DNA from: Curvibacter sp. GWA2_63_95
GTDB lineage: Bacteria; Pseudomonadota; Gammaproteobacteria; Burkholderiales; Burkholderiaceae_C
Length of the DNA: 64,000 nt
NCBI GenBank assembly: GCA_001795455.1
Contig: MGPB01000008.1
Span: forward strand, 62,001 to 126,000
Direction: 5' to 3'
Shown here piece after piece: positions 48,901-64,000 of this stretch. The notes under the pieces are model-generated. The model was given only the letters and a program-made list of their open reading frames with translations, was not told the DNA's origin and did no database searches. Numbering within the stretch: the first letter of the stretch is position 1; the number at the start of each line of letters is the position of its first letter. The position numbers were made by a program, and so were the translations under genes.

Positions 48901-49259
48901 TGCGGGAGCAGCTATCAAAACAGAAGCTGCTGACGGCCGCGCAGATGCGCGACTACCCCAGTGGCCGTCTGGTCCGCGCCTGCGGCATCGTCACGGCGCG
49001 CCAGCGGCCGCAGACCGCCAAGGGTGTGATTTTTGTGACGCTGGAGGACGAGACCGGTAGCGTGAATGTGATTGTGTGGAAGAGCGTGCACGAACGCTGG
49101 CGCGATGTGGCTTACCGCGCACGGCTGATGGCGGTGTATGGCGTGTGGCAGCGCGATGACGAGAGCGGCGGCCAGGTGCGCCATGTGGTGGCCAAATACC
49201 TGGTAGACCTGACCCACCTGCTGGGCGACCTGGCCACCACCAGCCGGGATTTCCACTGA
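45975..49259 (+). CDS. dnaE2: Error-prone DNA polymerase DnaE2 (ImuC)
   Basis: 1094 aa, C-family polymerase for SOS translesion synthesis with ImuA and ImuB. The PHP domain opens with YAELHCLSSFSFQRGASQPEE; the catalytic aspartates are in EPPDIDVDFEHQRR; GFPRHLSQHVGGFVLTQGPL and FGEYGFPESHAASFALLVY are DnaE2 hallmarks; an OB fold is near the end (GVIFVTLEDETGSVNVIVW). Three stretches are read from the dispersed repeat (about 133-152, 456-473 and 964-983). The second is part of a roughly 60-residue low-complexity insertion not expected in the family. A LexA-like box lies upstream. Confidence 0.95.
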   Translation: MPPDYAELHCLSSFSFQRGASQPEELVQRAHALDYRALAVTDECSVAGVVRAHVEAKRLGLPLLPGAEFVVALPDGGHFTLVALPHNLAGWGQLCEFITAARMAAPKGEYRAAWHEANWAALQDCEVLLQFQFAINIEAACAISIRARGLFGPNCWLMASAGLVVGDVLQRVRVQQLSALSGLPVLATGQVCMHVRSRKPLHDVLTAVRLGQPVSACGFALQANAEGHLRSRARLAALFPPDWLANTLTAAQRCTFSLDELRYHYPLEAVLPGQTAAQTLRHYVEEGASERYPAGVPQDIRARVEHEMALIVELRFEMYFLTVHDIVRFARREHILCQGRGSAANSVVCYCLHITEANPHETSLLFERFISRERNEPPDIDVDFEHQRREEVIQYIYAKYGRERAAIAATVISYRPRSALRDVGRALEIPEVLITAMAKEHPGMYSREVLAGRLQDAIEKVAAGTYSTGAGSLDGRAPSSVSPARSAGSSLTSAERPAAQTPGWAGGGALPSERRLQLWLELSTVLQGFPRHLSQHVGGFVLTQGPLTRLVPVENAAMPERSIIQWDKDDLSAVGLMKVDVLALGMLSAIRRCLEMVAQRRGLLQPLRMQDIPRDDVATYDMICAADTVGVFQIESRAQMSMLPRLQPRCYYDLVVEVAIVRPGPIQGGMVHPYLKARKDPEAAKSPYPALHKALKRTHGVPIFQEQVMQIAVLAAGFTPGEADALRRSMAAWKRHGNVSQYHDRLVGGMVERGYPLDFAEAIFKQMEGFGEYGFPESHAASFALLVYISSYLKWHEPACFLAALLNSQPLGFYGPAQLVQDAQRHGVVVHAVDVMHSDWDCTLEAISARPVFVEGPAVRLGLRLVSGLTQAVATRITGQRLLAPFASTQDLALRCQLDAGDLKALASADALQSLSGHRRQQVWDASALLPAPALLRGVPIDEDDLVLPAAGEGEEVTFDYAAVGLTLRSHPLLLLREQLSKQKLLTAAQMRDYPSGRLVRACGIVTARQRPQTAKGVIFVTLEDETGSVNVIVWKSVHERWRDVAYRARLMAVYGVWQRDDESGGQVRHVVAKYLVDLTHLLGDLATTSRDFH
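46371..46430 (+). repeat. Dispersed Comamonad repeat, copy 10 (inside dnaE2)
   Basis: GCTATCAATATAGAAGCTGC then TTGCGCAATATCCATAAGGG then CTAGGGGCC. It is read as AINIEAACAISIRARGL within the PHP domain. Confidence 0.9.
47342..47395 (+). repeat. Dispersed Comamonad repeat, copy 11 (inside dnaE2)
   Basis: GCTATTGAAAAAGTAGCTGC then TGGCACATATTCCACGGGCG then CTGGGAGCC. It is read as AIEKVAAGTYSTGAGSL and followed by about 40 Ser/Ala/Pro-rich residues before the conserved GFPRHLSQH block. Confidence 0.85.
48866..48923 (-). repeat. Dispersed Comamonad repeat, copy 12 (inside dnaE2)
   Basis: Reverse orientation and most diverged on one side: CTATTGCGGGAGCAGCTATC then AAAACAG keeps the core, while the CCCGTGG side is blurred. 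It is read as LLLLREQLSKQ. Confidence 0.65.
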
Positions 49260-49982: not shown

Positions 49983-51011
49983 TCAGCCCTGCGTGATGGC
50001 GACCGGCAGGCCGGTCTGGAGTGACTCGGTCACCGCCAACCCAATGCGCGTGGCCTCCAGCGCGTCGGACAGCGTGAGCGTGAGCGCGCGCTCGCCGCGG
50101 CAAGCGGCCACGAACTCGGCCATCTCGGCCGCAAATGCTGCCTCGAAACGCTCGTAGAAGTCCTTCAGCACGGCATGGCGCACACCGTGGGCATCGCTCT
50201 TCACCACACGGTCGCGGGCAGCGTGCTCGCCCACCAGCAGCTTGCCGGCGGTGCCAATGACCTCCGTGTGGGTTTCATGGCCGTGGGCCATGGTGCGCGA
50301 GGCGTAGAAGACGGCCTTGGCACCGCCCTCAAAGTCCACAATGGCCAGGCCGTTGTCCACATCACCAAACTCCGCCAGACCGGGGTGCAGGGCGATGGTG
50401 CCGGTGGCGTAGGCGCGCAGGGCCTTGGGGCGGCCCAGCATCCAGCGTGCCAAATCGATGTCGTGCACGCTGCAGTCCATGAAGATGCCGCCCGAGGTGG
50501 GCGCAAAGCGCACAAAGAAGCCGTCGGGGTCATTCTGGTCGCAGGTCTGCGAGCGCACGATGAACGGGCGTCCGATCTCGCCTGCCTCAATGCTGGCCTG
50601 GGCCGCACGGTAGCTGGGGTCAAAGCGGCGCACAAAGCCCACCATGGCCACCAGTGCCGGGTGCTTGGCCGCCTCTGCCAATACGCGCGCGCAATCGGGC
50701 ACGTTCAGGGCCAGGGGCTTTTCCACAAACACATGTTTGCCGGCTTGCAAGGCCGCAATGGCCTGGTCGGCATGCAAAGAGGTGGGGGTGACCAGCACCA
50801 CAGCGTCCACATCGGGGCTGGCCAGCAGGTCTTCATAACGGGAGTAGACCTGGGTGATGCCGAGCTGCTCGGTGGCATACACACGCTCGGCTTCGACCGG
50901 GCTGCAGGCGGCGGTGAGGGTGCAGTTGCGGGTGCTGAAGGCCAGGGCTTGTGCGTGGCGTTGGCCCAGGCGGCCGAGGCCGACGATACCGATCCGCAAA
51001 GAGGATGTCAT
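49983..51011 (-). CDS. Gfo/Idh/MocA family oxidoreductase (inositol-dehydrogenase-like)
   Basis: 342 aa NAD(P)-dependent oxidoreductase. The Rossmann motif is IGIVGLGRLGQRHAQAL, the catalytic Lys is in HVFVEKPLALNVPD, and the C-terminal domain has GGIFMDCSVHDIDLARWMLG with the typical Asp/His pair. The family oxidises inositols, their methyl ethers or amino-inositols. It follows another such gene eight bases upstream on the same strand. The position in the cyclitol island, next to iolG-type enzymes, points to a methyl- or amino-inositol or a keto intermediate as substrate. Confidence 0.9.
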   Translation of the reverse strand: MTSSLRIGIVGLGRLGQRHAQALAFSTRNCTLTAACSPVEAERVYATEQLGITQVYSRYEDLLASPDVDAVVLVTPTSLHADQAIAALQAGKHVFVEKPLALNVPDCARVLAEAAKHPALVAMVGFVRRFDPSYRAAQASIEAGEIGRPFIVRSQTCDQNDPDGFFVRFAPTSGGIFMDCSVHDIDLARWMLGRPKALRAYATGTIALHPGLAEFGDVDNGLAIVDFEGGAKAVFYASRTMAHGHETHTEVIGTAGKLLVGEHAARDRVVKSDAHGVRHAVLKDFYERFEAAFAAEMAEFVAACRGERALTLTLSDALEATRIGLAVTESLQTGLPVAITQG

Positions 51012-51019
51012 GGCGCGCC

Positions 51020-52015
51020 TTAGAAGGTGATGATCTGGTTGGTGGCAGCGCTTTGGGCGGCGGCATCGGCCAGGATTTGCGCGTCCACGCCGTCCTGCAC
51101 CGTGGTGCGGAAGCTGCCGCCGTTTTGCAACTGGGTGAAGAAGTGCTCGATCTCCAGGCGGTAGGCCGCGGCGTAGCGCTGCAGGAAGAAGGCTTCAGGG
51201 TTGTCCTGCGAGGTGCCTTGTGCCGTGGCCTGGGTCACTTCGCTGGGGCGGTGGTTGCCACACTGCAGCATGCCCGCAGAGCCAATCACCTCAAAGCGCT
51301 GGTCGTAGCCGTAGGCGGCGCGGCGCGTGGTGTTGATCTGGCACAGGCGGCCCTTGACGGTCTTGATGGTGACGGCCGTGCAGTCAAAGTCGCCGGCTTT
51401 GCCAATGGCGGGGTCGGTCAGGCAGGAGCCGGTGGCGCTGAGCCAGGCCGCCTTGTCGCCATCGCCACACAGAATCCAGCGGAACACATCGAAGTCGTGG
51501 ATCAGCATGTCGCGGAAGATGCCGCCGGACTGCTGGATGTACTCCACCGGGGGCGCACCGGGGTCGCGGCTGGTGATGACCAGCATTTCGGGGTTGCCGA
51601 TGTCACCGCGGTCCAGGCGGATTTTGGCCTCGTTGAAGGTGGGGTCGAAACGGCGCTGGAAGCCGATCATGCAGGCCACGCCGGCAACTGAGACCGCCTT
51701 TGCCACCGCCTCAGCGCGTTGCACGGACAAGTCCACCGGTTTTTCGCAGAAGATGTGTTTGCCGGCAGCCGCTGCGCGTGCGATCAGGTCGCTGTGCGTG
51801 GTAGTGGGCGAGCAGATGGCAACGGCGTCGATACTCTTGTCCGCGAACACGGTGCCAATGTCTGCCACCTGGGCACCCAGAGTCTGCGCCAGGTCTGCAG
51901 CAGTAGCGGGCATGGCATCGCAGATGTACTTGAGTTGCACGCCCGATTGGGCGGCAAGGTTGGTGGCGTGAATGCGGCCAATACGACCAGCGCCGAACAC
52001 TGCAACGTGCTTCAT
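51020..52015 (-). CDS. iolG: Inositol 2-dehydrogenase, proteobacterial IolG type
   Basis: 331 aa. Rossmann motif VAVFGAGRIGRIHATNL, catalytic Lys in HIFCEKPVDLSVQ, and the subfamily blocks IGFQRRFDPTFNEAK, ITSRDPGAPPVEYIQ, GGIFRDMLIHDFDVFRW and RRAAYGYDQRFEVIGS. This pattern is the proteobacterial IolG group that oxidises myo-inositol to 2-keto-myo-inositol with NAD. It is first of a two-gene operon. A GGAA-N6-TTCC palindrome lies 81 bases upstream, between this gene and the RpiR-type regulator. Confidence 0.92.
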   Translation of the reverse strand: MKHVAVFGAGRIGRIHATNLAAQSGVQLKYICDAMPATAADLAQTLGAQVADIGTVFADKSIDAVAICSPTTTHSDLIARAAAAGKHIFCEKPVDLSVQRAEAVAKAVSVAGVACMIGFQRRFDPTFNEAKIRLDRGDIGNPEMLVITSRDPGAPPVEYIQQSGGIFRDMLIHDFDVFRWILCGDGDKAAWLSATGSCLTDPAIGKAGDFDCTAVTIKTVKGRLCQINTTRRAAYGYDQRFEVIGSAGMLQCGNHRPSEVTQATAQGTSQDNPEAFFLQRYAAAYRLEIEHFFTQLQNGGSFRTTVQDGVDAQILADAAAQSAATNQIITF

Positions 52016-52096: not shown

Positions 52097-52114
52097 TTGG
52101 AAATATTTTTCCAA
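52097..52114. promoter_or_regulatory. GGAA-N6-TTCC palindrome upstream of iolG (probable RpiR/IolR operator)
   Basis: TTGGAAATATTTTTCCAA is a 7-4-7 perfect inverted repeat containing GGAA-N6-TTCC, a pattern I recall for IolR of rhizobia. Near-copies occur at 53064-53081 (13 of 18) and 60875-60892 (17 of 18). Confidence 0.75.
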
Positions 52115-52152: not shown

Positions 52153-53025
52153 TTAGGCTTGTGCCGGGGTCGAGGTTGGGCGGTAAGGCAGCTCCAGCGC
52201 ATAGGCCAGGGAAATGAACAGGCTTTGTGCCAGGCCCATGGTACTGGTTAAGGCCCTGAAGCCGAAGGTCGAGTTGTCCTGCACGATCAGCACGGCCTCA
52301 GCGTCTTTGGCCAGTGGGCTCATGCGGCTGTCGGTGATGGCGATCACGCGCGCACCCCGTTCTTGTGCCAGCGCTACGGCGGCCAGTGTTTCTTCCGCAT
52401 AGGGTGCAAACGAAATGGCCAGTATCACATCGCCCGTGCGCACTGAGCGCATCTGCCCCAGATGCATATTACCCAAGGCCGACATCAGGCACACACGCTT
52501 GTCGGTGTGCTGCAGCGCGTAGTCCAGGTAGACGGCAATAGGGAAAGAGCGACGTGACGCGGCGATCCAGATGCAGTCGGTCTTGCGCAGCATGTCCACG
52601 GCTTTTTTAAAGGTGGCCTCGTCCAGATTTGCCTCCAGCTCGTGCATGGCAGCCTGGCTGCCAGCCAAAAACTCGCGTGCAATTTCTACGCTTGAGAGAC
52701 TGCCGGCGCCAGAGTCGATGATGTCGCGGATGCGTGCGCGGTAGTTGCGGCTGGGCGCCAACTGGCGCGTCAAACCCTCGCGGAAGACAAGTTGCATCTC
52801 CGAGAAACCGGAGAAGCCGAAGTGCTTGGCAAAGCGCACCACCGCCGAGGGCTGCACCTGGCAGTTGGCCGCCAGTTGCTGGATACCTTCAATGCCGATG
52901 TGGTCGCGGTGCTGCTCCACATACTTGGCAATAATTTTGAGTTGTTTGCTCAGCGTGTCGTACTCCGCAGTAATGCGTGCGATGAACTGATCGACCGGGG
53001 TCTTCTCGTTGCCCTTGGATGCCAT
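52153..53025 (-). CDS. MurR/RpiR family regulator (IolR-like)
   Basis: 290 aa: an N-terminal helix-turn-helix (residues 15-85, with IQQLAANCQVQPSAVVRFAK) and a C-terminal SIS sugar-phosphate domain (about 130-265; SFAPYAEETLAAVALAQERG, VIAITDSRMSPLAKDAE). RpiR-type regulators of inositol loci are named IolR and respond to an inositol catabolite. Located 137 bases upstream of iolG on the same strand. Palindromes of one type lie on both sides of it, consistent with autorepression and repression of iolG. Confidence 0.9.
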   Translation of the reverse strand: MASKGNEKTPVDQFIARITAEYDTLSKQLKIIAKYVEQHRDHIGIEGIQQLAANCQVQPSAVVRFAKHFGFSGFSEMQLVFREGLTRQLAPSRNYRARIRDIIDSGAGSLSSVEIAREFLAGSQAAMHELEANLDEATFKKAVDMLRKTDCIWIAASRRSFPIAVYLDYALQHTDKRVCLMSALGNMHLGQMRSVRTGDVILAISFAPYAEETLAAVALAQERGARVIAITDSRMSPLAKDAEAVLIVQDNSTFGFRALTSTMGLAQSLFISLAYALELPYRPTSTPAQA

Positions 53026-53146: not shown

Positions 53147-54202
53147 TCAGGTGAGATAAGACTGATTCCCCATGTTTTCAGTGAAGTAGAGGCGAAATTC
53201 TCCGGCTTTTCCCAGTTGGTTGGTAGAAGAGGGGGCCATGCCCAGCGCGACCAGCACGTGCTGGAGGGCGCGGATGGCCTGGGTGTCCGGATCCTGGTCG
53301 ATTACCACGTCCAGAACGCCTTGTTGCAGGTATTGGCGGTGGTCATCGGAAATCTCGTGGGTAATCCAGCAGACTTTGTCGTGGGCGAAGCGTTGCAACG
53401 CCGCATGGATACCCGGTGAGCCAGCGCCCGTGTTGTAGAGGCCCACGACGTCGTGTTGGCCTTGCAGGGCCTTTTTGAGTGCGAGGTAGCAGCGGTCCGG
53501 GTCATCGTGCGTCTCGGCCACATCTTTATCCCAGCGCAGGTGGGGGAATTGCGCGGCCAGGACCTCTCGGCAGCCTTCGCTTCGTTCGATGTGGCCCAGG
53601 TAGTCCAACCGGCTGGAGAGGGTGAGGATGCGGCCTTCGCGATGGCACAAACGCCCCAACAGGTAGCCTGCGGTGCGGCCGGCGGCATGATTGTCGATGC
53701 CCACATAGTCGGCCTGCGGCACATGGTTCACGCGGGTGACCACCATGGCCACGTGCTCTCCGTTGGCACGCGCCTGCTGCAGCGCCTGGCGCACCGCTGG
53801 CGTGTCCGGCGCGGCCACGATCAGGGCCTGGCGTTTGTAGCGTCGAGGCCCGATGGCGCGCACCAGCGCAGCCTCGTCTTCCTCCGGTGTTGTCACGCGG
53901 TGGACGACCAGCCGTTTGTCGAGCATGGCCACGCCCCGCTGCATGGCCTGGTTCAGACGTTGGAAGAAGGGCGAGGGGTTGTCTGGCAGCACGATGTCGA
54001 TGTGTATCAAACCATGCCGGGTTTCGGGCAACACCCGTGGCACACCTAACTGGCGCGCAGCCTGCACCACTTTCTCCCGCGTCTTGACCGATGCGGTGTC
54101 GCGCTCGTTGAGCACCCGGTCTACGGTGGCAATGCTCACTCCCGCCAGTGCGGCAATTTCGGTGAAGCGTGCGGTCTTTTTTTTGCGACTAGGGTTAACC
54201 AT
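53147..54202 (-). CDS. LacI family regulator 1
   Basis: 351 aa. The DNA-binding helix-turn-helix is FTEIAALAGVSIATVDRVLN with the hinge VVQAARQLGV; a periplasmic-binding-protein-like sensor domain follows from about 65 (HGLIHIDIVLPDNPSPFFQR, then VGIDNHAAGRTAGYLLGRL). The TVDRVLN variety occurs in regulators of sugar and cyclitol genes. It is divergent from the TIM-barrel/iolG operon, and a perfect palindrome straddles its start codon region (54206-54223). I prefer the ATG at 54202; an in-frame ATG at 54223 would begin inside the palindrome. Confidence 0.9.
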   Translation of the reverse strand: MVNPSRKKKTARFTEIAALAGVSIATVDRVLNERDTASVKTREKVVQAARQLGVPRVLPETRHGLIHIDIVLPDNPSPFFQRLNQAMQRGVAMLDKRLVVHRVTTPEEDEAALVRAIGPRRYKRQALIVAAPDTPAVRQALQQARANGEHVAMVVTRVNHVPQADYVGIDNHAAGRTAGYLLGRLCHREGRILTLSSRLDYLGHIERSEGCREVLAAQFPHLRWDKDVAETHDDPDRCYLALKKALQGQHDVVGLYNTGAGSPGIHAALQRFAHDKVCWITHEISDDHRQYLQQGVLDVVIDQDPDTQAIRALQHVLVALGMAPSSTNQLGKAGEFRLYFTENMGNQSYLT

Positions 54203-54205
54203 AAA

Positions 54206-54223
54206 TTGACGATTTATCGTCAA
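54206..54223. promoter_or_regulatory. LacI-type operator between regulator 1 and the iol operon
   Basis: TTGACGA-TTTA-TCGTCAA is a perfect 7-4-7 palindrome, extended by AA/TT to 22 bases. It lies directly before the LacI gene start and 85 bases before the divergent TIM-barrel gene. Confidence 0.8.
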
Positions 54224-54308
54224 TTATTGCGCAGTATTTTCGGGAGCGGGAACCTACATTGCGCAGGCCGTGCTGCGTTGGCAGCCGCGATACGACCAGG
54301 AGACAAAG

Positions 54309-55211
54309 ATGAAGATAGCCTTAGACCCGTACATGATCCGGCACCTGAGCCTGAACGATCTGCCCGCCGCAGTAGCTGCCCTGGGCTATGACCAGATCGA
54401 ACTCTCTCCCCGCTCAGACTTTCTGGACTGGTGGGTCATGCCCCGCGCCACTAAAGAGCGTATGGGCGGCTTCAAGGCCGCCATGAAAGCCTCCGGCGTA
54501 GGGCTTGCCAGCCTGCAACCCATGTACCGCTGGGCCAGCCCGTTTGAAGACGAGCGCCAATGGGCCATGCGTTGCTGGAAGAAGGCTATTGAGGTAGCCA
54601 TTGAGATGGATTGCCCCTTGATGGTGTCCGAGTTTGGCCGGGGCTCGTCTCCGGAGCGCTCGGTAGGGGAGCGTCCCGGTGCCAACACCAAGGAGATGTG
54701 CGAAGCCGCCTGGTTCCGCTCCATGGATGAGTTGCTACCCATCTTTGAGCGCGAAGGCATCACGCTGTCGGTAGAACCTCATCCGGAAGACTGGATAGAG
54801 ACCATGCAGCCAGCGGCGGACATGGTGAAGAACATCGGCTCCAAGGCTTTGAAGCTGTCCTACATCGCCCCCCACACCTTTTACTACGGCGACGACATGG
54901 CGGCGCTGATCAAGGAAACCGCCCCGGTACTCGCCCATGTGCGGGTGGCAGATACCTTTAACCACAAGAAGAGCAGCCAGCTGCGCTACATCGTCAATCC
55001 CCCGGGCTCCAACCAGATACGGGTGCACCAGCACTTGGACATGGGCCAGGGCGAGATTGACTGGGATGTGTTCTTCAAGACGCTGGCGGAGGTGAAGTTT
55101 GATGGCGTGATGTCTTCATGCGTGTTTGCGTGGGAGGAGCGTGCTGAGGACTCCAGCCGCTTTATGCGCAGCGAGATGCAGCGCTATATCGACAAGTTTT
55201 CCAACAAGTAA
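54309..55211 (+). CDS. TIM-barrel sugar phosphate isomerase/epimerase-like protein 1
   Basis: 300 aa, AP-endonuclease-2/xylose-isomerase-like barrel. Conserved-type blocks: [60 protein letters not shown] (metal-ligand Glu/His), [20 protein letters not shown] and [20 protein letters not shown] (metal ligand His). It likely isomerises or dehydrates a keto-inositol. Ribosome site AGGAG precedes the ATG at 54309. It is first in the plus-strand operon with iolG and a second barrel protein, under the divergent LacI protein. The exact reaction is unknown. Confidence 0.88.
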
Positions 55212-55231
55212 CAACCCTCAGGAGATATTTC

Positions 55232-56242
55232 ATGACTTTGAAAATTGGTGTCATCGGAACCGGCATGATCGGCCGCGACCACACACGTCGCATTCAACAA
55301 GTGCTCGCGGGCGCCGAAGTGGTGGCCTTGTCTGACGTGAACGCGGCTAGCGCCGAAGCAGTTCGCAAAGACCTCGCACCCAACACCAAGTTGTACGACA
55401 CCGGTGAAGCCCTGATTGCAGCACCCGAAGTGCAAGCGGTATTGGTGACCTCTTGGGGCGCAACCCACGAGCCCTATGTGTTGGCCGCCATAGCCGCTGG
55501 CAAACCTGTTTTCTGCGAGAAACCACTGGCTACTACCGCTGAGGGGGCGCGTCGCATCGTCGATGCTGAAGTGAAGTTCGGCAAGCGCTTGGTGCAGGTC
55601 GGTTTCATGCGCCGCTACGACGCTGGCTATGTGGCGCTCAAGCACGCTGTGGAAAACCATACTGGTGCGCCTATCCTGGTGCACGCCGCTCACCGCAACC
55701 CCGCCGTTCCAGAGGCGTATGTGACGCCCATGGCCATCCACGACACCATGATCCATGAGATCGATGTGTTCCGCTGGTTGCTGAACGACGACTACGTGTC
55801 CGCCCGCGTGCTCTACCCCCGCAACGCGGCCCGCAGTCACACCAAGCTGCGCGATCCACAGGTCGTGGTGCTGGAGACCCAGAAGGGCGTACTGATCAAT
55901 GTGGAAATCTTCGTCAACTGCGCCTACGGCTACGACATCCAGTGCGAAGTGGTGGGCGAAGAAGGTACTGCCAAGTTGCCCGAGCCGATGACGGTGGACA
56001 TGCGCCTGGGCGCCAAGCGGCAGAGCACCATTCTCACTGATTGGAAAGACCGCTTTGTGGCCAGCTACGACGTGGAGTTGAAGGACTTTATCGGCGCGGC
56101 CTCCCAAGGTGGCGCCACCGGCCCGAGTGCCTGGGATGGCTATGCCGCCGCAGTCACCTCCGACGCCTGCGTGCAGGCGCAAGAGAGCAACGGCCAGCCC
56201 GTCGCCATTGAACTGCCTACCCGTCCTGCGCTGTACGCGTAA
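55232..56242 (+). CDS. iolG: myo-Inositol 2-dehydrogenase (Bacillus-type IolG)
   Basis: 336 aa. Long blocks match the Bacillus subtilis IolG as I remember it: [113 protein letters not shown]-like segment at the C-terminal sheet and [20 protein letters not shown]. It oxidises myo-inositol, and in relatives D-chiro-inositol or glucose, with NAD; Lys in EKP and the Asp/His in HDTMIHEID are catalytic. It is a different subfamily from the iolG at 51020. Confidence 0.93.
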
Positions 56243-56269
56243 ATCAATCTCTCTATCTGAAAGAACACT

Positions 56270-57061
56270 ATGCGTTTTTCTTTGAGCCATATCCTGGCCC
56301 CCCGCCAATCTCCCGCAGAGTTTTTCGCCATGGCCCGCGCCCTCGGCGTGACCGATGTAGAAATCCGCAACGACACCCCCAATGTGGTTGGCACCTTGGC
56401 GCCGGCTGACGTGAAAGCAGCGGCGGCTACTGCCGGAGTGAACCTCTTGTCTATCAACGCGTTGTATCCCTTCAACGTGTGGAACGATGAGCGCCGTGCC
56501 CAGACCGAGAAGCTGGCCGACTATGCCGCCGCATCCGGCGCCAAAGCCCTGGTCATGTGCCCGCTCAATGATGGCACCCCCGTGTCACAAGCCGATGTAG
56601 TGACCGCACTCAAGGCGATCAAGCCGATCCTGGAATCGCGCGGCATCACCGGTTTGGTGGAGCCACTGGGTTTCCCTGTGTCGTCCCTACGCCGCAAGGC
56701 CGATGCGATCGCAGCCATCAAGGAAGCGGGCGGCGAAGGCTTGTTCAAGTTGGTGCACGACACCTTCCACCACCACCTGGCCAGTGAGACCGAGTTCTTT
56801 CCTGAATGGACCGGTTTGGTGCATATTTCCGGCGTGGTTGATGCGGACGTGTCTGTGGACAAAATGCTCGACGCCCACCGCGTGCTGGTGGACAAGCGTG
56901 ACCGCCTGGGCAACATCCCCCAGATTCGTGCCTTGCAGGCTGCAGGTTACAAGGGCCCGTTCAGCTTCGAGCCCTTTGCTACCGAAGTGCAGGAGTTGGC
57001 CGACCCGCAAGCTGCGCTGGCCGATAGCATCGGCTGGATTCGCGAACAGGTCGCTGCCTGA
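56270..57061 (+). CDS. TIM-barrel inosose isomerase-like protein (IolI-like)
   Basis: 263 aa, xylose-isomerase-like barrel. Strands carry VTDVEIRNDTPNVVGTLAP, GVNLLSINALYPFNVWND, GLVEPLGFPVSSLRRKADAI (metal-ligand Glu), LVHDTFHHHLASETEFFPE (metal-ligand His/Asp), and PFSFEPFATEVQEL (last Glu). The DxEIRND start is typical of IolI-type 2-keto-myo-inositol isomerases found beside iolG in Proteobacteria. It is third in the operon, 27 bases after iolG, and followed by an intrinsic terminator. Confidence 0.88.
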   Translation: MRFSLSHILAPRQSPAEFFAMARALGVTDVEIRNDTPNVVGTLAPADVKAAAATAGVNLLSINALYPFNVWNDERRAQTEKLADYAAASGAKALVMCPLNDGTPVSQADVVTALKAIKPILESRGITGLVEPLGFPVSSLRRKADAIAAIKEAGGEGLFKLVHDTFHHHLASETEFFPEWTGLVHISGVVDADVSVDKMLDAHRVLVDKRDRLGNIPQIRALQAAGYKGPFSFEPFATEVQELADPQAALADSIGWIREQVAA

Positions 57062-57140: not shown

Positions 57141-58130
57141 TCAGCACCGTTGCCATTCTTCCTGCAGCCACCGTGCGCAGGCGATGTTGTTTTGCCAGAT
57201 GTCGTAACGCCCACCACCGCCGTAATCCGGGAAGGGAATGAACTCACAGCTGATTTGCTGGGGCGCGTGAGTGGGGTGCGCCTTCATCCAGTCCAGCATT
57301 TCGTTCACCGCGGTCTTCCAGGTGGTGAGTGCCTGCACCTCCCAATTGCGGTGAAAGCTTCCTGGTGCGGGTTCGATAAAGGGGTATTGAATCGCGCGAC
57401 CTGGTCGGCCGTTACTGCGTTGCATGGCAGCGTTGCCCGGTAGGCCGGTTGCCACGCTGCGTGTGTGCGCATGCACCACCCAGCCACGTGCCAGCCACTG
57501 GCGGTAGAGCGTGCCAGGCAACCCGGGCGCCAGCTGCGCCCGCCCGCCATCCGCAGCGTTTTGCAGGCCGCTGGCTAGTAGCTCTTCCGGGGTGTCGATC
57601 TTGAACACCAAGTGCGAGTGGTCCAGTGTCAGGCGCAGTGACACGTTTGATCGCGCCAGCAGCTCGCCTACCGCCTCCACACGATGAAAGCGCTCGCTCC
57701 ACATGTCGACATGCACTTCCATTGCAGGCAGGCAGCCCGCAGTGGCGCCGTGTTCCATCGCATCGAGAAACCAGTCAGCCACCTCGCGGTCACTGAGTTC
57801 GTGACCATCAGCGTGGCGCGCGAACAGCTGGATGTTGAACAGCCGTGCGCCCAGTTCGCCACCGGTGCGCATGCCCCAGCGCATTAAGGCCTCATCACGG
57901 CCTGCGCAAAAGATGCCACCGAACACGCCGACGGGTATGCCGTGTTCGGCAATCCAGTAGCGGTAGGGTGAAAAATCTTCATCCGGATCAATGTTCTTTT
58001 CGATGTAGTCAAAGACACCGGCGTCGCGCACCCAGCGCAAGCGGGTAGGCGTGTCGGGGCTAGGCAGGCCGTCGTGGATCAGCACACCATCCAAATTGAT
58101 GCCGATGGGCAGTGCTTTAGAGGGAGTCAT
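57141..58130 (-). CDS. TIM-barrel protein of the moc operon (xylose isomerase-like superfamily)
   Basis: 329 aa. Barrel-type segments are GINLDGVLIHDGLPSPDTPT, IEKNIDPDEDFSPYRYWIAE, HGIPVGVFGGIFCAGRDEAL, CLPAMEVHVDMWSERFHRVE (Glu/Asp metal ligands) and LRLTLDHSHLVFKIDTPEEL (Asp/His). It ends with CEFIPFPDYGGGGRYD. It is not close to IolE or to the two other barrels here. The start overlaps the mocF stop by four bases, so it is made together with MocDEF and probably acts on their product. It may correspond to MocC of rhizobial moc loci; I cannot verify this. Confidence 0.8.
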   Translation of the reverse strand: MTPSKALPIGINLDGVLIHDGLPSPDTPTRLRWVRDAGVFDYIEKNIDPDEDFSPYRYWIAEHGIPVGVFGGIFCAGRDEALMRWGMRTGGELGARLFNIQLFARHADGHELSDREVADWFLDAMEHGATAGCLPAMEVHVDMWSERFHRVEAVGELLARSNVSLRLTLDHSHLVFKIDTPEELLASGLQNAADGGRAQLAPGLPGTLYRQWLARGWVVHAHTRSVATGLPGNAAMQRSNGRPGRAIQYPFIEPAPGSFHRNWEVQALTTWKTAVNEMLDWMKAHPTHAPQQISCEFIPFPDYGGGGRYDIWQNNIACARWLQEEWQRC

Positions 58131-59398
58131 GTTGCCACCGCCATGCCTGATACCAATGCTTTAAGTTTTACGGCTGGATCGCGCAGCTCTTCTGGGTGGG
58201 CGTGAACCCGCCGCTCCACCAGCATGCGTGCGAGTTTGAAGTCTTTGAGACATTTCTGTGTCACACCCCAAGCGCTCATACCCACTGCACGGTTCTGCTC
58301 GTCCAGGTGAAAAGTGATGTGCATGCCTTCTCCCAGTTCGCGCTTTACGGTGTGCGTGCCCAAGGCGGGTTCGCCGCACACTTGCAGCTGATGGTCGTAC
58401 TGGTCGCTCCAGAACCAAGGCGCTTGCTGCACACGCTCCATCACATCTGTCTGGTCGCAGAGCATATTGCGCGCGGCAACCCGGGCTTGCGTTTCGGCAT
58501 TGAACCAGGTCTCCTGTCGCATTGGCTGACCCGACAAGGGGCCTGGGAACTCCGCCACGTCTCCCGCAGCGAACACATCGGGTGCGCTGGTGCGCAAGTG
58601 GGCATCCACGAGGATGCCTTGTGCCACGGCAAGGCCCGCCGCTCGCGCCAATTCGGTGGCTGGCTTCATGCCGATGCCCACTATGACCGTATCTGTGTCT
58701 ATGTGACTTCCATCCCTCAGGTGCACTCGCACACCGCAGGGGGAGTGGGGCGCGATTGCTGTGGGTAGCATGTCCAGTCGAACGTCCACCCCTCGGGCCT
58801 GATGCAGCGCGTGTACTGACGCGGCCACATCCGCGGGCACGGTGCGGCCAAGCAAGCGGCTTGCGCCTTCTAGCAGCGTCACCGCCATGCCGGTGCGTCG
58901 CGCAGAAGCGGCAACCTCCAGGCCGATGAAGCCGCCGCCAATGACCAGCAAGCGTCTACCTTCACCCAGTCGCTGTGCGAGCAGCAAAGCGTCGTCCACG
59001 GTGCGCAGTGTGAGCACTTCGGGCAACTCAGCGCCGGGAATGTCCAGGCAGCGTGCGCCACCGCCGGTGGCCAGCAGCAGCCGGTAATAAGGCAGTACCT
59101 CTCCGTTGGCCAGCGCGATGCAGTGAGCGACAGTGTCGATGGAGGACACACGCTGCGTGTGAAGGTGTATGTCGTCATCAATCATGGTTTGCACGCTGCG
59201 TAGCTGGCAGTCTTCTGCCGTTTTTTCACCGGTCAACAGTTCTTTGGACAGCGGCGGGCGTTCATAGGGCGCATGGTGCTCCATGCCGACCAGATGGATC
59301 GGGCCGGCCCACCCGGCTTCGCGCAGTGCCTGGGCCGCACGACCACCACAGTGGCCTGCTCCGACGATGACCATACCGGCAGAAAGTGAGGCCTGCAT
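58127..59398 (-). CDS. mocF: MocF-like ferredoxin reductase (FAD, NAD(P)H)
   Basis: 423 aa flavoprotein of the rubredoxin/ferredoxin reductase group. FAD site VIVGAGHCGGRAAQALREAG at the N-terminus; YERPPLSKELLTGE; NAD site LLVIGGGFIGLEVAASARRT; and the second FAD motif in TSAPDVFAAGDVAEFPG. It would move electrons from NAD(P)H to the adjacent Rieske ferredoxin. It lies four bases after mocE and overlaps the TIM-barrel gene. The length and neighbours match MocF of rhizopine catabolism. Confidence 0.88.
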   Translation of the reverse strand: MQASLSAGMVIVGAGHCGGRAAQALREAGWAGPIHLVGMEHHAPYERPPLSKELLTGEKTAEDCQLRSVQTMIDDDIHLHTQRVSSIDTVAHCIALANGEVLPYYRLLLATGGGARCLDIPGAELPEVLTLRTVDDALLLAQRLGEGRRLLVIGGGFIGLEVAASARRTGMAVTLLEGASRLLGRTVPADVAASVHALHQARGVDVRLDMLPTAIAPHSPCGVRVHLRDGSHIDTDTVIVGIGMKPATELARAAGLAVAQGILVDAHLRTSAPDVFAAGDVAEFPGPLSGQPMRQETWFNAETQARVAARNMLCDQTDVMERVQQAPWFWSDQYDHQLQVCGEPALGTHTVKRELGEGMHITFHLDEQNRAVGMSAWGVTQKCLKDFKLARMLVERRVHAHPEELRDPAVKLKALVSGMAVAT

Positions 59399-59402
59399 GG
59401 GC

Positions 59403-59720
59403 TTAGCTTTCTTCGGGCTGGAGTTGCACCCGGCCTTCGTGCACGCGGGCTGGCCAAGTGCGCAGGTTCACGCACACCGGTGCGCCCAAGGCACGTCCGT
59501 CGCGAATGTCAAAGCGGCCGTTGTGCTTGGGGCATTCAATGACGTGCTCCATCACTAGGCCATCGCCCAAGTGGATTTTTTCATGCGTGCACAGTCCGTC
59601 GGTGGCGTAAACCTTGTCTTCGTAGCGGTAAATGGCGTATGTCTTGTCGGCGTGGTCAAAGCGACGCACGTCTTCATCGTCAATCGCGTCGAACTCGCAC
59701 ACATCAATCCAGTCGGTCAT
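59403..59720 (-). CDS. mocE: MocE-like Rieske 2Fe-2S ferredoxin
   Basis: 105 aa, small soluble Rieske ferredoxin. The cluster ligands are Cys-x-His in GLCTHEKIHLGDG and Cys-x2-His in IECPKHNGRFDIRDG. It would pass electrons from the reductase MocF to the oxygenase MocD. The ATG at 59720 (MTDWIDVCEFDAIDDEDV) gives a typical length. It lies between mocD (28-base gap) and mocF (4-base gap). Confidence 0.93.
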   Translation of the reverse strand: MTDWIDVCEFDAIDDEDVRRFDHADKTYAIYRYEDKVYATDGLCTHEKIHLGDGLVMEHVIECPKHNGRFDIRDGRALGAPVCVNLRTWPARVHEGRVQLQPEES

Positions 59721-59748
59721 GGGTATCTCCGGGTTGTTTTTGTGACTA

Positions 59749-60834
59749 TCAAGAACGCGCAGGCAGTGGCCGCGCAATGTGGAATGTGTGGTCTCTGCGC
59801 TGGTGCCAGATGGCGGGCAGGATCTCCGCCAACGCCTGTGGTGTGCTGGTGTAGGGCGGAGGGCAGTTGTCTTTCATCAACGCGTGCAGCTTCGGCAGCG
59901 CGTGGTAAGGCACCAGCGGGAACATATGGTGCTCCACGTGGTAGTTCATGTTCCAGTAAAGAAAGCGCAGCACCGGCCCCATCAGGATGGTGCGACTGTT
60001 GATTCGGTGGTCCAGCACGTTTTCCGGTAAGCCGGCGTGCTGCGTCAGCCCCAACATGTGCATGAGCCAAGCCCCGGCCATGCTGGGCAAAGGACCCAAC
60101 AGCAACACCGGCAACCAACTTTGCATAGCCACGGCTGTCGCAATGATGAGCGTGTAGGCCAGTATCCACATGCGCGAGGTACGAATAGCGGATGCCCACG
60201 CCATCTCGGGGATGTAGGTTTTCTCTTCCGCGCTGATGTAGCCGAATGCGTGGCGCACGGCCGCCCATAACTCGCTCGGCACATTCCTAATAGCGAAGAA
60301 GTTCAGTAGCAGGGCTGAAATATCCGGCGGCAGCGTGACGTTGAATTCCGGGTCCCGGCCGGTCACCAGCGTGTCGGTGTGGTGGCGCGCGTGGCTCCAG
60401 CGCCAGCGGGTGGGGCGGCGGGTGAGCTGGAAGGACGCGAGCTGGTACAGCGCATCGTTCATCCAGCGAGTTTTGAATGCGGTGCCATGGCTACATTCAT
60501 GCCAGCGACTGTCTGAAGGGCTGCTGTACAGCGTGGCGTACAGCCAATAGGCGGTCACCAGCGCCCAGGTGCTCCAACCCGCCGTCCAGCCCATCACAAA
60601 CAGCGCGCAGGCACCCAGAAGCAGCGCGTACCACAAGGCCGTGTCGCGCAAGGCGTGAGCATCGTCGCGTTTCATCAGCGCCTTGAGTTCGGTGCGTGGC
60701 ACCGGGCATTGGTACCACTGCGCGTTCACCAGGCCAGCGGCCTCGGCACGTTCGCTGGCTCCACCGATCAGGCGGTAATCATCGGTGGATCGGAGCGGTG
60801 CGGCAGCGGCGGTATCAGGTCTCGCGGTGGTCAT
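59749..60834 (-). CDS. mocD: MocD-like membrane di-iron oxygenase (fatty acid desaturase fold)
   Basis: 361 aa integral-membrane desaturase/hydroxylase. Three histidine boxes bind the di-iron centre: HECSHGT (HxxxH), HARHHTDT (HxxHH) and HVEHHMFP (HxxHH), plus the late NMNYHVEHH context. About four membrane segments: ALWYALLLGACALFVMGWTA, then others near 85, 215 and 235. In rhizobia MocD with MocE and MocF is needed to use 3-O-methyl-scyllo-inosamine, by inference an oxidative O-demethylation. Here it is first gene of the operon mocD-mocE-mocF-TIM barrel, with a GGAA-type site 40 bases upstream. Confidence 0.85.
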   Translation of the reverse strand: MTTARPDTAAAAPLRSTDDYRLIGGASERAEAAGLVNAQWYQCPVPRTELKALMKRDDAHALRDTALWYALLLGACALFVMGWTAGWSTWALVTAYWLYATLYSSPSDSRWHECSHGTAFKTRWMNDALYQLASFQLTRRPTRWRWSHARHHTDTLVTGRDPEFNVTLPPDISALLLNFFAIRNVPSELWAAVRHAFGYISAEEKTYIPEMAWASAIRTSRMWILAYTLIIATAVAMQSWLPVLLLGPLPSMAGAWLMHMLGLTQHAGLPENVLDHRINSRTILMGPVLRFLYWNMNYHVEHHMFPLVPYHALPKLHALMKDNCPPPYTSTPQALAEILPAIWHQRRDHTFHIARPLPARS

Positions 60835-60892: not shown

Positions 60893-60966
60893 TATGGAGA
60901 TGTCAAACTGCATCAAAACCTATCAAAATTAAGTTATGGAAACTTGCATTACTGGCAGGAATACGT

Positions 60967-62004
60967 ATGAAACCCAAGATCACCATCCAAGCCATTGCGG
61001 AAGCGGCAGGCGTGAGCACTGCCACGGTGGATCGCGTGCTCAACAGCCGTTTACCCGTGCGCGAGGGTACGGCTTTGCGCGTGATTGAGGCCGCGGACCG
61101 GCTGGGCTACCACGCAGTGCACGTGATGCGGCAGCGCTTGCCCGCGCGTGGGGGCCGGCGGCGCTTGGGGTTTTGTCTGCAAAAGCGCTCTTCGCCCTTC
61201 TACCAATCATTTGCACAGGCCTTGCGCGATGCTGTTGCACGCCAGACTGACGGGCGTGGTACGGCGGTGATTGAGTTCGTAGATGACCTGGATCCGGGAA
61301 TCATTGGCGAGAAACTGTTGGAATTGGGACGGCGCTGCGATGCACTGGGCGTGGTGGCGTTGGACCATCCGCATGTCAACGCTGCGGTGGAACAGCTGCA
61401 CGAAGAAGGCCATCCCTGTCTGGCGCTGCTCAGCGACTTAAGTTCGCCGCTGCGCCTGGGCTGTGTCAGCATCAACGACCGGCAGCGTGGGCGCATGGCC
61501 GCCTGGGCCGTGCGCCGCCTTGCGCGCAGCGACGGCGATGTGGCGGTGTTCATTGGCAGTCACCGCTATCTGGGGCAGGAAATCAGCGAAATGGCGTTCC
61601 GTGCTGCGCTGCGCGAGCAAGCCCAGGGGCTGCGCGTGCTGGAGGCCCAAGTAAACCTGGAGGATGAACAGCTGGGCTATGAAGCCACCCTGGGCCTGCT
61701 GGCCCGTCACCCTCAGTTGGTGGGCCTGTATGACACCGGAGGCGGTGCCATGCGCGGCATCGTGCGGGCACTGCGCGAGGAGGGCGCGGGCCGTGACATT
61801 GTGGTGGTAGCCCACGGCCTCACCCCTGAGCACCGGCTGGCGTTGATTGACAATGTGATCGATCTTGTGATCCAGACCCCCGTAGGTCCGGTGGCTGATA
61901 CGGCCATATCGGTGCTGTTGCGTGCGTTGGAACCGGGTCAGCCTGTGGCCTTTGGCCAGCCCTTTGTATTGCCCTTTGAGTTGTATACATCCGATAACGT
62001 CTGA
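60967..62004 (+). CDS. LacI family regulator 2
   Basis: 345 aa. Helix-turn-helix TIQAIAEAAGVSTATVDRVLN and hinge VIEAADRLGYHAVHVM, then the periplasmic-binding-type sensor (RRLGFCLQKRSSPFYQSFAQ, CVSINDRQRGRMAAWAVRRL, LVGLYDTGGGAMRGIVRALR). It is a distant paralog of regulator 1 with the same TVDRVLN start. It is divergent from mocD by 132 bases, so it probably controls the moc operon; its ligand may be the rhizopine-like substrate. No clear long palindrome of its own is visible in the spacer apart from the GGAA-type site. Confidence 0.9.
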   Translation: MKPKITIQAIAEAAGVSTATVDRVLNSRLPVREGTALRVIEAADRLGYHAVHVMRQRLPARGGRRRLGFCLQKRSSPFYQSFAQALRDAVARQTDGRGTAVIEFVDDLDPGIIGEKLLELGRRCDALGVVALDHPHVNAAVEQLHEEGHPCLALLSDLSSPLRLGCVSINDRQRGRMAAWAVRRLARSDGDVAVFIGSHRYLGQEISEMAFRAALREQAQGLRVLEAQVNLEDEQLGYEATLGLLARHPQLVGLYDTGGGAMRGIVRALREEGAGRDIVVVAHGLTPEHRLALIDNVIDLVIQTPVGPVADTAISVLLRALEPGQPVAFGQPFVLPFELYTSDNV

Positions 62005-62092: not shown

Positions 62093-63112
62093 TTAGCGGC
62101 CGCGCTTCTTGTTGCGATATTTGTCGGCAATCACCGCAATCACGATGATGGCGCCCTTCACCATCTCCTGGTAATAGGCGTCGATGCGGATGAAAGTAAA
62201 GCCAGACATCATCACACCCAGAATCAGCACGCCGATCACGGTGCCGGTTACGCGGCCAACGCCACCCACAAGTGACGTGCCACCAATCACCACTGCGGCA
62301 ATTGCATCCAACTCGTACATCACACCCATGCCGGACTGGCCGGAGATGGCGCGCGCTGCAGTCACGCTACCGGCAATGCCGCTGAGCAGGCCAGCAATGG
62401 CGTAAATCCAGAGGAGGTGACGGTTCACGTTGATGCCGGACACCAGTGCAGCCTGGCGGTTGGCGCCGATGGCGTAGGTGAATTTTCCAAATCGGGTGTA
62501 GCGCAAGACGATATGGAAGATGACGGCAATGATCAAAAAGATATACACGGGGTTGGCGCCGGAACCGATCCATGCGAAATCATCGGTCAACATGGACACT
62601 GGCATACCACCAGTGAACCACTTGGCAAAACCGCGTGCTGCCACCATGGTGCCTAGCGTGACGATGAAGGGTGGAATCGCTGCATAGGCCACCAAGGAGC
62701 CATTAAGCATGCCGATCAAAAGGCCGGTCGTCATCCCCGCGAGAATGGGCCAGATCAAGGGTAAATCCGTCAACGCCGGAAAAATGGCCCGGGGAAAGTC
62801 AGATACCTGCGCCAAACTGGCCGATACAACTGCGGTTGCCGCCACTACGGAACCCGAAGATAAATCTGTACCACTGGTAATGATGACCATGTTGACGCCA
62901 ACGGCGATGATGCCGATGACCGACATCTGCAAGATGATGATCTGCAGTCGCTCCAGATTGAAGATAAAACTCTGACTGTTGATGTACCAGCCCAGCGCTT
63001 CGAAAAACAAACTGATGCCGATCAGCACCATCAAGATGCTGGCTTCCGGTGGAAGCTTGAATTTGGGCTTGCTGCCCATCACAGGTGATGCAGAGACGGT
63101 GGAAGTAGTCAT
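62093..63112 (-). CDS. Ribose-type sugar/cyclitol ABC transporter permease
   Basis: 339 aa, RbsC-like permease with about ten membrane segments. Signatures: IIAVGVNMVIITSGTDLSSG (RbsC motif), AAIPPFIVTLGTMVAARGFA, TRFGKFTYAIGANRQAALVS and AIAAVVIGGTSLVGGVGRVT. It lies 19 bases after the ATPase gene on the minus strand. With the dehydrogenases, isomerases and MocDEF beside it, an inositol, inosamine or rhizopine is the likely cargo. Start ATG at 63112 (MTTSTVSASPVMGSKPK). Confidence 0.93.
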   Translation of the reverse strand: MTTSTVSASPVMGSKPKFKLPPEASILMVLIGISLFFEALGWYINSQSFIFNLERLQIIILQMSVIGIIAVGVNMVIITSGTDLSSGSVVAATAVVSASLAQVSDFPRAIFPALTDLPLIWPILAGMTTGLLIGMLNGSLVAYAAIPPFIVTLGTMVAARGFAKWFTGGMPVSMLTDDFAWIGSGANPVYIFLIIAVIFHIVLRYTRFGKFTYAIGANRQAALVSGINVNRHLLWIYAIAGLLSGIAGSVTAARAISGQSGMGVMYELDAIAAVVIGGTSLVGGVGRVTGTVIGVLILGVMMSGFTFIRIDAYYQEMVKGAIIVIAVIADKYRNKKRGR

Positions 63113-63131
63113 GGTTGCGTCTTTCGGTGAA

Positions 63132-64000
63132 TTACTTGGCAGCCAGGTCCATGATGGACACCTGATCTGCATCTTTGCGGTCCAGAATGCCAGTGACAGT
63201 GCCTTCGTGCATCACGACAATGCGGTCACTCATGCCGAGCACTTCTGGCATTTCTGAAGAAATCATGAGAATGGCAACGCCTTGGCCTGCCAGCTCAGAC
63301 ACCAGACGGTGAATCTCGGCCTTGGCGCCCACGTCGATGCCACGGGTTGGTTCATCCAGAATCAGAATCTTCGGGTTCGTTAGCAACCAACGGCCCACCA
63401 GCACTTTTTGCTGGTTGCCACCTGACAGGTTTTGAATGATTTCGTTCATGTCTGGCGTTTTGACCCGCAAGCGCTTGGCCATGGCGATGCAGTCTTCGTT
63501 CAGTTGCTTATGCTGCACAAATCCGTTGGACACATAACGGCTGTTTAGCACTGCACTGTCCATGTTTTCCTGAATATTCAAGGCCAAAAAGCAACCGGTT
63601 TCTTTGCGGTCTTCGGTTAAAAAGGCCATGCCGCACTGCATCGCCTTGGCCGGTGTATTGATGTGCTCTTCTTTGCCGTTGATCGTGATGGTTCCACCGT
63701 TCGCAGGTGTCACGCCGAACAGCGTTTCGGCGACGTTAGATCGGCCGGAACCCACCAGTCCTGCCATGCCGACAATTTCGCCGGCACGCACATCAAAATT
63801 CACGTTTTTGAAAACGCCATTCAAAGTCAAGTTCTTGATGGACAGCACTACCTCGCCAATCGGCACGTCCTGTTTTGGGAACATCTGGGTGATCTCACGT
63901 CCCACCATCATCTTGATGATGTCGTCGCGGGTTACCTCGGTGGAGAGTTTGGTGGCAATGTATTTGCCATCGCGGAACACAGAGAACTCATCGGCAATCT
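63132..64000 (-). CDS. Ribose-type ABC transporter ATP-binding protein (partial)
   Basis: C-terminal part of a two-domain RbsA/MglA-like ATPase; the gene continues beyond 64000. Visible are the end of domain 1 ([20 protein letters not shown]), then domain 2 with the degenerate Walker [15 protein letters not shown], signature [16 protein letters not shown], Walker [13 protein letters not shown] and the switch region [20 protein letters not shown]. It powers the importer whose permease follows. The periplasmic binding protein gene is expected just upstream, outside the window. Confidence 0.93.

Follow-up and report, generated by a model that had tools for sequence, protein, structure and literature searches.

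A mocDEF operon among inositol genes in Curvibacter sp. GWA2_63_95: a predicted O-methyl-inositol demethylase with an unclassified barrel protein

What do oxygenase genes named for rhizopine catabolism do in a bacterium that carries them amid genes for inositol breakdown? The question is raised by a 64,000-nucleotide stretch of Curvibacter sp. GWA2_63_95 (contig MGPB01000008.1, positions 62,001 to 126,000; hereafter the window), in which mocD, mocE, mocF and a fourth gene, for which we use the working name timA, form one tight operon with a LacI-type regulator gene divergent upstream. An original prediction from the window had called this a rhizopine-type operon acting on a methylated inositol or a rhizopine. 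The sequences show the gene set, its order, its conservation and its position in the MocD tree, whereas the reaction, the substrate and the role of TimA are our inference; MocDEF is, in our judgement, probably an inducible di-iron oxidative O-demethylase for O-methyl-inositols.

The operon and its inositol setting

The mocD and mocE genes are separated by 28 bases and mocE and mocF by 4, and mocF overlaps timA by 4 (coordinates in Table 1). These four open reading frames (ORFs), including the overlapping triosephosphate isomerase (TIM) barrel gene, had been predicted at these places and all were confirmed. The proposed identities of MocD, MocE and MocF are supported by Pfam matches, by the MocE score and by invariant histidines. 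MocE exceeds the NCBIfam cut-off of TIGR02377 MocE_fam_FeS (148.1 vs 136.15 bits), and the closest named NCBIfam models of MocF are HcaD and AndAa, each matched under its own cut-off. MocD gave no match to PDB sequences at E 0.01. The residues of its three histidine boxes (H112, H116, H148, H151, H152, H299, H302 and H303) are invariant in 10/10 aligned MocDs, in keeping with the di-iron desaturase fold proposed earlier. A three-histidine-box desaturase-fold protein here adjoins a MocE-family ferredoxin and a ferredoxin reductase, and oxidative demethylation is the activity predicted for the three. The closest MocD found is that of Malikia granosa (Comamonadaceae; 71% identity), which makes the earlier label 'Comamonad' plausible.

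A complete inositol pathway brackets the mocDEF-timA operon. On one side, timC, iolG and timB (54270-57061, plus strand) are convergent with it. On the other, past an ATP-binding cassette (ABC) ATPase gene, the adjoining stretch (L013, to C8 136075) encodes a binding protein, a fused IolC/J (1018 bits against a cut-off of 600), IolD (860 against 715), a second binding protein, IolE (374 against 290), IolB (323 against 205) and IolA (683 against 448.5). An intact inositol pathway is a feature of moc systems, and its presence around the operon argues for the earlier guess that the substrate is a methylated inositol.

In the proposed reaction, MocF would take electrons from NADH and MocE would carry them to MocD, whose di-iron site would use O2 to hydroxylate the methyl ether carbon of an O-methyl-inositol. 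These steps are proposed because three-component oxygenases are established to behave in this way and because one-carbon partner genes occur. The hemiacetal would break down to formaldehyde and free inositol, which IolG-type dehydrogenases would convert to keto-inositol. IolI-like barrels (TimB, TimC, perhaps TimA) would shift the keto-inositol into the myo series, and IolE, IolD, IolB, IolC/J and IolA would complete its breakdown. TimA may play an accessory part in demethylation itself or in a step acting on its first product.

One such partner in rhizobia is a PanB-like gene (annotated 3-methyl-2-oxobutanoate hydroxymethyltransferase), which follows mocDEF in three annotated loci, with purU in one. 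A PanB-like gene after mocDEF, in some cases with purU, was seen at rhizobial loci L005, L007, L011, L012, L078 and L084. This arrangement suggests folate-linked disposal of formaldehyde. The genome of the window holds only a 34% PanB relative.

The leading candidate substrate is D-pinitol (3-O-methyl-D-chiro-inositol), followed by ononitol or sequoyitol. The case for pinitol is that its demethylation would yield D-chiro-inositol, for which the cluster has a fitting dehydrogenase gene, both here and in Malikia; the structure matched by IolG, 3mz0, is titled 'Inositol 2-dehydrogenase/D-chiro-inositol 3-dehydrogenase' and is, we assume, the B. subtilis enzyme. Homologues of mocDEF in R. mesoamericanum were upregulated 1.5-2.1-fold in Mimosa root exudate, in which pinitol was the most concentrated measured component (145 uM vs 0.73 uM inositol). 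The authors interpret this induction as rhizopine catabolism (available text of PMC5789663).

Relatives of MocD and competing readings

Ten MocD queries run against genome contigs returned at least 594 stretches with at least 577 relatives, of which the best 80 were analysed; these are the nearest to the window MocD and the sample is therefore biased. Nineteen of these loci encode a protein longer than 600 amino acids (aa) and were treated separately as fused, leaving 61 unfused loci, among which truncation at contig ends lowers the gene counts. A mocE is nearby in 59/61, and in 38/61 a mocF was recognised as well. The regulator is of LacI type at 48 loci (lacI1-like at 38, lacI2-like at 10) and of none of the three types at 13, with mocR and mocA each at 0/61 within the fetched stretches. 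An inositol gene occurs at 33 loci if timB and timC are included, and a strict inositol gene at 16.

A near-complete copy of the cluster is present in Sphaerotilus hippei (L020: iol genes, ABC transporter, LacI gene divergent from mocDEF, timA, rpiR, lacI2, timB, idhA and idh2), and parts of the arrangement recur at L017, L019, L021, L028 and L033. A B. cenocepacia plasmid has the order iolG-timB-timA followed by the divergent LacI gene and mocDEF, and a vent-plume Nitratireductor carries iolG, ABC and barrel genes, the divergent LacI gene and mocDEF, and purU. The original prediction presented occurrence outside nodulating bacteria as a surprise, a view that is not supported: Burkholderia, Caballeronia, Sphaerotilus, Nitratireductor and Nostoc all yielded MocD relatives, fused forms came from the four phyla named below, and mocDEF has already been reported in Pseudomonas syringae (PMC5132102).

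In a 125-row MocD tree (quick search, midpoint root, some long branches far from the groups discussed), the window MocD pairs with that of Malikia (Shimodaira-Hasegawa-like approximate likelihood ratio test, SH-aLRT, 100) inside a 37-row betaproteobacterial branch (98). A 95-row MocD clade (99) leaves out the desaturase outgroup rows and the genome's own second desaturase; the outgroup branches are long and their placement unsure, and the rows include no verified carotenoid enzyme. MocD thus groups with MocDs and not with fatty-acid desaturases, as the original prediction had required of itself.

Two further arrangements were seen. In Malikia granosa (L144:2058-6813) a LacI-like gene is divergent from genes for a PF04116 fatty-acid-hydroxylase-type protein, MocE, MocF and an AP_endonuc_2 barrel; there the MocE/MocF chain apparently serves another membrane di-iron fold. 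Loci L146, L148 and L149 (genomes G630, G698 and G757) carry, near the first, a second MocD-like gene with its own LacI gene and 45-47% identity to that of the window, whose target may be a different methyl position or isomer.

The alternative that survives best is that the inositol ring itself is hydroxylated or desaturated by MocDEF, or that the substrate is a non-cyclitol O-methyl or deoxy sugar, with no demethylation of O-methyl-inositols. We regard this as unlikely, although the fused MocDs lend it some weight. These proteins of about 690-810 aa (L050, L052, L055, L056, L061, L071-L073, L076, L077, L083, L085, L086, L088, L091-L094) come from four phyla, Verrucomicrobiota, Bacteroidota, Acidobacteriota and Kiritimatiellota, with no match to an inositol query within the flank, and some lie near an IlvD/Edd-type dehydratase, an aldose epimerase or an aldo/keto reductase. 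Moreover, what has been published on the function of mocDEF goes back to rhizopine studies (Bahar 1998 and others) that we know through citations. Inositol genes, however, often adjoin the operon in the window's own branch, one-carbon partner genes recur, and TimA is tied to demethylases. A domain scan of four fused proteins (L050, L073, L076 and L094, with the 708-aa L049 left out) found FA_desaturase and Rieske domains in all four and an added NAD-binding reductase domain in each except L050. Such fusions suggest one electron chain, and the fused MocDs may demethylate O-methyl sugars.

Less probable still, to the point of being doubtful, is a true rhizopine pathway, in which MocDEF would demethylate 3-O-methyl-scyllo-inosamine and another aminotransferase or dehydrogenase would take off the nitrogen before the inositol pathway. 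MocDEF homology speaks for it, as do the ABC binding protein by the operon, which shares 57% identity with the MocB of a MocR-type cluster in R. lentis, and an ORF labelled by eye as class III aminotransferase-like about 3 kb past iolA (L013:14310-15776). At the MocR-type plasmid loci L006, L012 and L178, mocR, mocB-like and mocA-like genes lie beside mocDEF, the set that the available part of PMC10107442 describes for rhizopine strains. In the window and adjoining stretches, however, mocR has no match, the genome's seven MocR-like matches (27-42% identical) being on other contigs, and both mocR and mocA are missing from the fetched stretches of all the unfused relatives. Against the MocAs of L006 and L012 the three Gfo/Idh neighbours reach only 27-30% identity, and they match inositol dehydrogenase models instead. 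The MocB-like match does not single out rhizopine because LacI-type inositol clusters (L024, L040 and L074) carry such proteins too. Within the rhizobial branch the three MocR-type MocDs are split between two positions, one of them adjoining LacI-type S. meliloti pSymB rows (SH-aLRT 96), and appear to be derived twigs in a branch other than that of the window. The label 'rhizopine-type' is thus not borne out, the binding protein being the one point that stands in its favour.

It is very improbable that MocD desaturates lipids or carotenoids and merely neighbours inositol genes: the protein has the Pfam FA_desaturase domain and weak NCBIfam similarity to DesB and CrtR, but scores far under their cut-offs (39 of 500 and 21 of 475 bits), the 95-row clade excludes the desaturase outgroup rows, though their long branches leave their placement unsure, and the operon with MocE is conserved.

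Several observations weigh against O-methyl-inositol demethylation, or against pinitol as its substrate. A mocF-like reductase was recognised in just 38 of the unfused loci, many Caballeronia loci have no inositol gene within the fetched flank, and the 57% MocB match points towards rhizopine clusters. IolG falls about 23 bits short of the NF052679 cut-off (517 vs 540), and a D-chiro-type iolG beside the module was seen only here and in Malikia; pinitol is therefore not the rule for the whole branch. Finally, no assay of this MocD branch was found in the open-access library searched.

TimA and its link to demethylation

TimA has no match in Pfam, NCBIfam or PDB sequences, and none to Pfam AP_endonuc_2 (xylose isomerase-like barrels) even at E 10; among nine homologues scanned against AP_endonuc_2, three match under the cut-off and six do not match. 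An AlphaFold2 model computed from nine sequences has eight barrel strands (mean predicted local distance difference test score 76.7, predicted template modelling (TM) score 0.80). Foldseek matches it to UlaE (3cqj, E 5.2e-8), IolE (3cny, E 1.5e-5), Art22 and O-glycoside beta-eliminase, with TM about 0.5. The model thus places TimA among xylose-isomerase-like barrels, in a family that no Pfam or NCBIfam entry matches, which agrees with its earlier description as an uncharacterised barrel. Residues E138, D170, H222 and E296 are invariant in 11/11 aligned sequences and, by analogy with such families, are candidate metal ligands at the barrel mouth. The Rieske-linked homologues described below have Gln at the position equivalent to H222, and their chemistry may therefore differ.

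In a family sample of 399 genomes, MocD matches (E 1e-40; strong below 1e-100) occur in 14 genomes, nine of them strong, and TimA matches (E 1e-30; close below 1e-150) in 16, seven of them close. All seven close-TimA genomes are among the nine strong-MocD genomes (p 1e-13; by genus 4/4, p 1e-6), leaving G469 and G507 with a strong MocD and no close TimA. Both proteins are absent from the four other genomes of the window's genus in this sample. In G436, G630, G698 and G757 timA adjoins a mocF and mocD lies elsewhere, 13 kb away in G630 and, in the other three, either at a long distance or on a different contig. At E 1e-25, TimA was found in 3/398 genomes of the phylum, including the window's own and G133, and is therefore rare.

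Distant TimA homologues were examined in ten genomes, nine from the family sample plus G158 from the phylum sample. VanA_C, marking a VanA-type Rieske demethylase, lies within 3 kb of the distant TimA in 6/10 genomes against 0.06 expected (p 8e-12), or in 5/7 genera when one genome per genus is counted, although this control is post hoc, being computed on the same genomes that suggested the link. In G642 the distance is 4.6 kb. The formaldehyde dehydrogenase gene frmA is within 3 kb in 3/10 genomes, and distant homologues also lie near a PF00756 esterase. Neither VanA_C nor frmA is near the distant TimA in G133, G575 and G769; in G133 timA is overlapped by a mocF-like reductase gene. Four of the 53 plasmid records with TimA relatives were inspected: one is a mocDEF case, P. 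fulva has Rieske oxygenases, Aminobacter has frmA and A. nosocomialis has both.

This tie to demethylation is the most surprising part of the locus. We tentatively suggest, as a possibility short of an even chance, that TimA founds an unrecognised family that serves oxidative demethylation whatever the oxygenase. It would partner MocD on inositol ethers and VanA/Ndm-type Rieske demethylases elsewhere, handling the hydroxymethyl intermediate, formaldehyde or a shared first product, and in mocDEF operons would occupy the slot of the rhizobial PanB-like one-carbon enzyme. At two of the distant TimA loci, L162 and L172, no demethylase, formaldehyde gene or mocF-like gene was found. In the unfused loci timA (8/61) and panB or purU (16/61) never occur together. 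Mutual replacement of TimA and PanB was considered and rejected: shared ancestry confounds the 0/61 overlap, and at L020 timA occurs alongside a purU-like match.

Regulators, neighbouring genes and known systems

The divergent regulator LacI1 shares 44% identity with its likewise divergent counterpart at the mocD locus of R. johnstonii 3841. A candidate site upstream of mocD, TGAT-N6-TGAT-N6-TGAC, occurs in 11/62 lacI1-type upstream regions against 0.14 expected from first-order Markov copies; the pattern was picked after viewing a MAFFT alignment of nine regions, and two of the 11 rows are one gene. It is missing from 51/62 regions, and ten of the 11 positive rows, those two included, belong to the window's own branch. 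The alignment of the nine lacI1-mocD intergenic regions itself gave no clean operator. LacI2 is 52% identical to the B. cenocepacia plasmid regulator. A GGAA-N6-TTCC palindrome, the IolR-type site of S. meliloti, has its sole exact window match in the interval that separates idhA from the RpiR gene (52099-52112; 0.59 expected in the whole window) and none in L013. This site does not account for the regulation of mocDEF, and control by an IolR-type site was rejected.

Table 1. Features of the mocDEF-timA locus, in window coordinates.
Feature	Coordinates	Strand	Description	Evidence or remark
mocD	59749-60834	minus	di-iron oxygenase of desaturase fold, 361 aa, with three histidine boxes	Pfam FA_desaturase E 9.2e-34
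mocE	59403-59720	minus	Rieske-type [2Fe-2S] ferredoxin, 105 aa	Pfam Rieske E 8.5e-17
mocF	58127-59398	minus	FAD/NAD(H) ferredoxin reductase, 423 aa	Pyr_redox_2 E 1.2e-63; Reductase_C
timA	57141-58130	minus	predicted xylose-isomerase-like TIM barrel, 329 aa	
lacI1	60967-62004	plus	LacI-family regulator divergent from mocD	Pfam LacI
Candidate regulator site	60902-60925	minus	TGAT-N6-TGAT-N6-TGAC	68-91 bases upstream of mocD start
timB	56270-57061	plus	xylose-isomerase-fold barrel, 263 aa, IolI-like by context	PF01261
iolG	55232-56242	plus	myo-/D-chiro-inositol dehydrogenase type	427 bits to 3mz0
timC	54270-55211	plus	further xylose-isomerase-like barrel, 313 aa	PF01261 E 2.3e-45
lacI2	53147-54223	minus	second LacI-family regulator, type adjoining mocDEF in Burkholderia	
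rpiR	52153-53025	minus	RpiR-family regulator, IolR-like by context	HTH_6 and SIS
idhA	51020-52015	minus	inositol 2-dehydrogenase	TIGR04380 391 bits, cut-off 355
idh2	49983-51011	minus	second inositol-dehydrogenase-like Gfo/Idh/MocA gene	TIGR04380 304.8 bits, under cut-off 355
ABC permease	62093-63172	minus	sugar-type permease	ORF; same-place homologue in Sphaerotilus and Rhizobacter loci L019, L020, L021, L028
ABC ATPase	63132-63998	minus	sugar ABC ATPase	overruns window; whole gene at contig C8 125132-126670

TimB scores 158 bits to the solved structures 2q02 and 4hgx, the former presumably Salmonella IolI2. In the available text of PMC10783015, iolI2 is described as uncharacterised. For TimC, a sequence search of the PDB gave no solved relative at E 1e-5. 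A DNA polymerase III alpha-type gene (1094 aa; 45975-49259) lies just beyond the inositol cluster, and GntR-type, class III aminotransferase-like and glutamine-synthetase-like ORFs, labelled by eye, lie past the iol operon (L013:13651-17233).

Among known systems, the rhizopine mocDEF of S. meliloti L5-30 and R. leguminosarum (PMC10107442, in part) has the same three proteins in the same order and the same tie to inositol. L5-30 was represented in our comparisons by L006, L012 and L178, and the MocDs of L006 and L012 are 51-52% identical to that of the window. Unlike those clusters, the window has a LacI-type and not a MocR regulator, lacks mocA, carries a complete iol cluster and falls in a separate tree branch, and the slot after mocF holds timA where L006, L012 and L178 have a PanB-like gene. 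R. johnstonii 3841 (on pRL11) and S. meliloti 1021 (on pSymB) share with the window the LacI gene divergent from mocDEF (LacI 43-44% identical), and TimB occurs in 3841 as well, but both have a PanB-like gene after mocF where the window has timA. The laboratory strain S. meliloti Rm1021, source of the pSymB locus L007, does not produce rhizopine according to PMC6668481. In P. syringae, outside the rhizobia, mocDEF lies directly upstream of the xylose-isomerase-type xylA2, and the rest of the moc operon is reported absent in the available portion of PMC5132102. The likeness of xylA2 to timA is by description only, and the inositol pathway is a feature of the window. Distant TimA homologues lie inside clusters of VanA- or Ndm-type Rieske demethylases with frmA/frmB. 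Oxidative demethylation by ndm enzymes releases formaldehyde (excerpt of PMC4408171). The VanA/Ndm oxygenase, however, is a Rieske protein with a fold unrelated to that of MocD.

Methylated inositols are widespread in legumes (PMC8730688, in part) and make up a major share of carbohydrate in many plants (PMC5889025, in part), and a search of the open-access literature found no genes named for their bacterial breakdown. The module is real, conserved and patchily distributed, an enzyme of known kind whose role is probably wider than its name, with one unclassified component. If our proposal is true, MocDEF would be a general entry enzyme for methyl-inositol carbon and the rhizopine pathway a specialised offshoot of it, so that the story of a 'private nutrient' would gain an older public counterpart, and TimA would be a testable new player in enzymatic demethylation.

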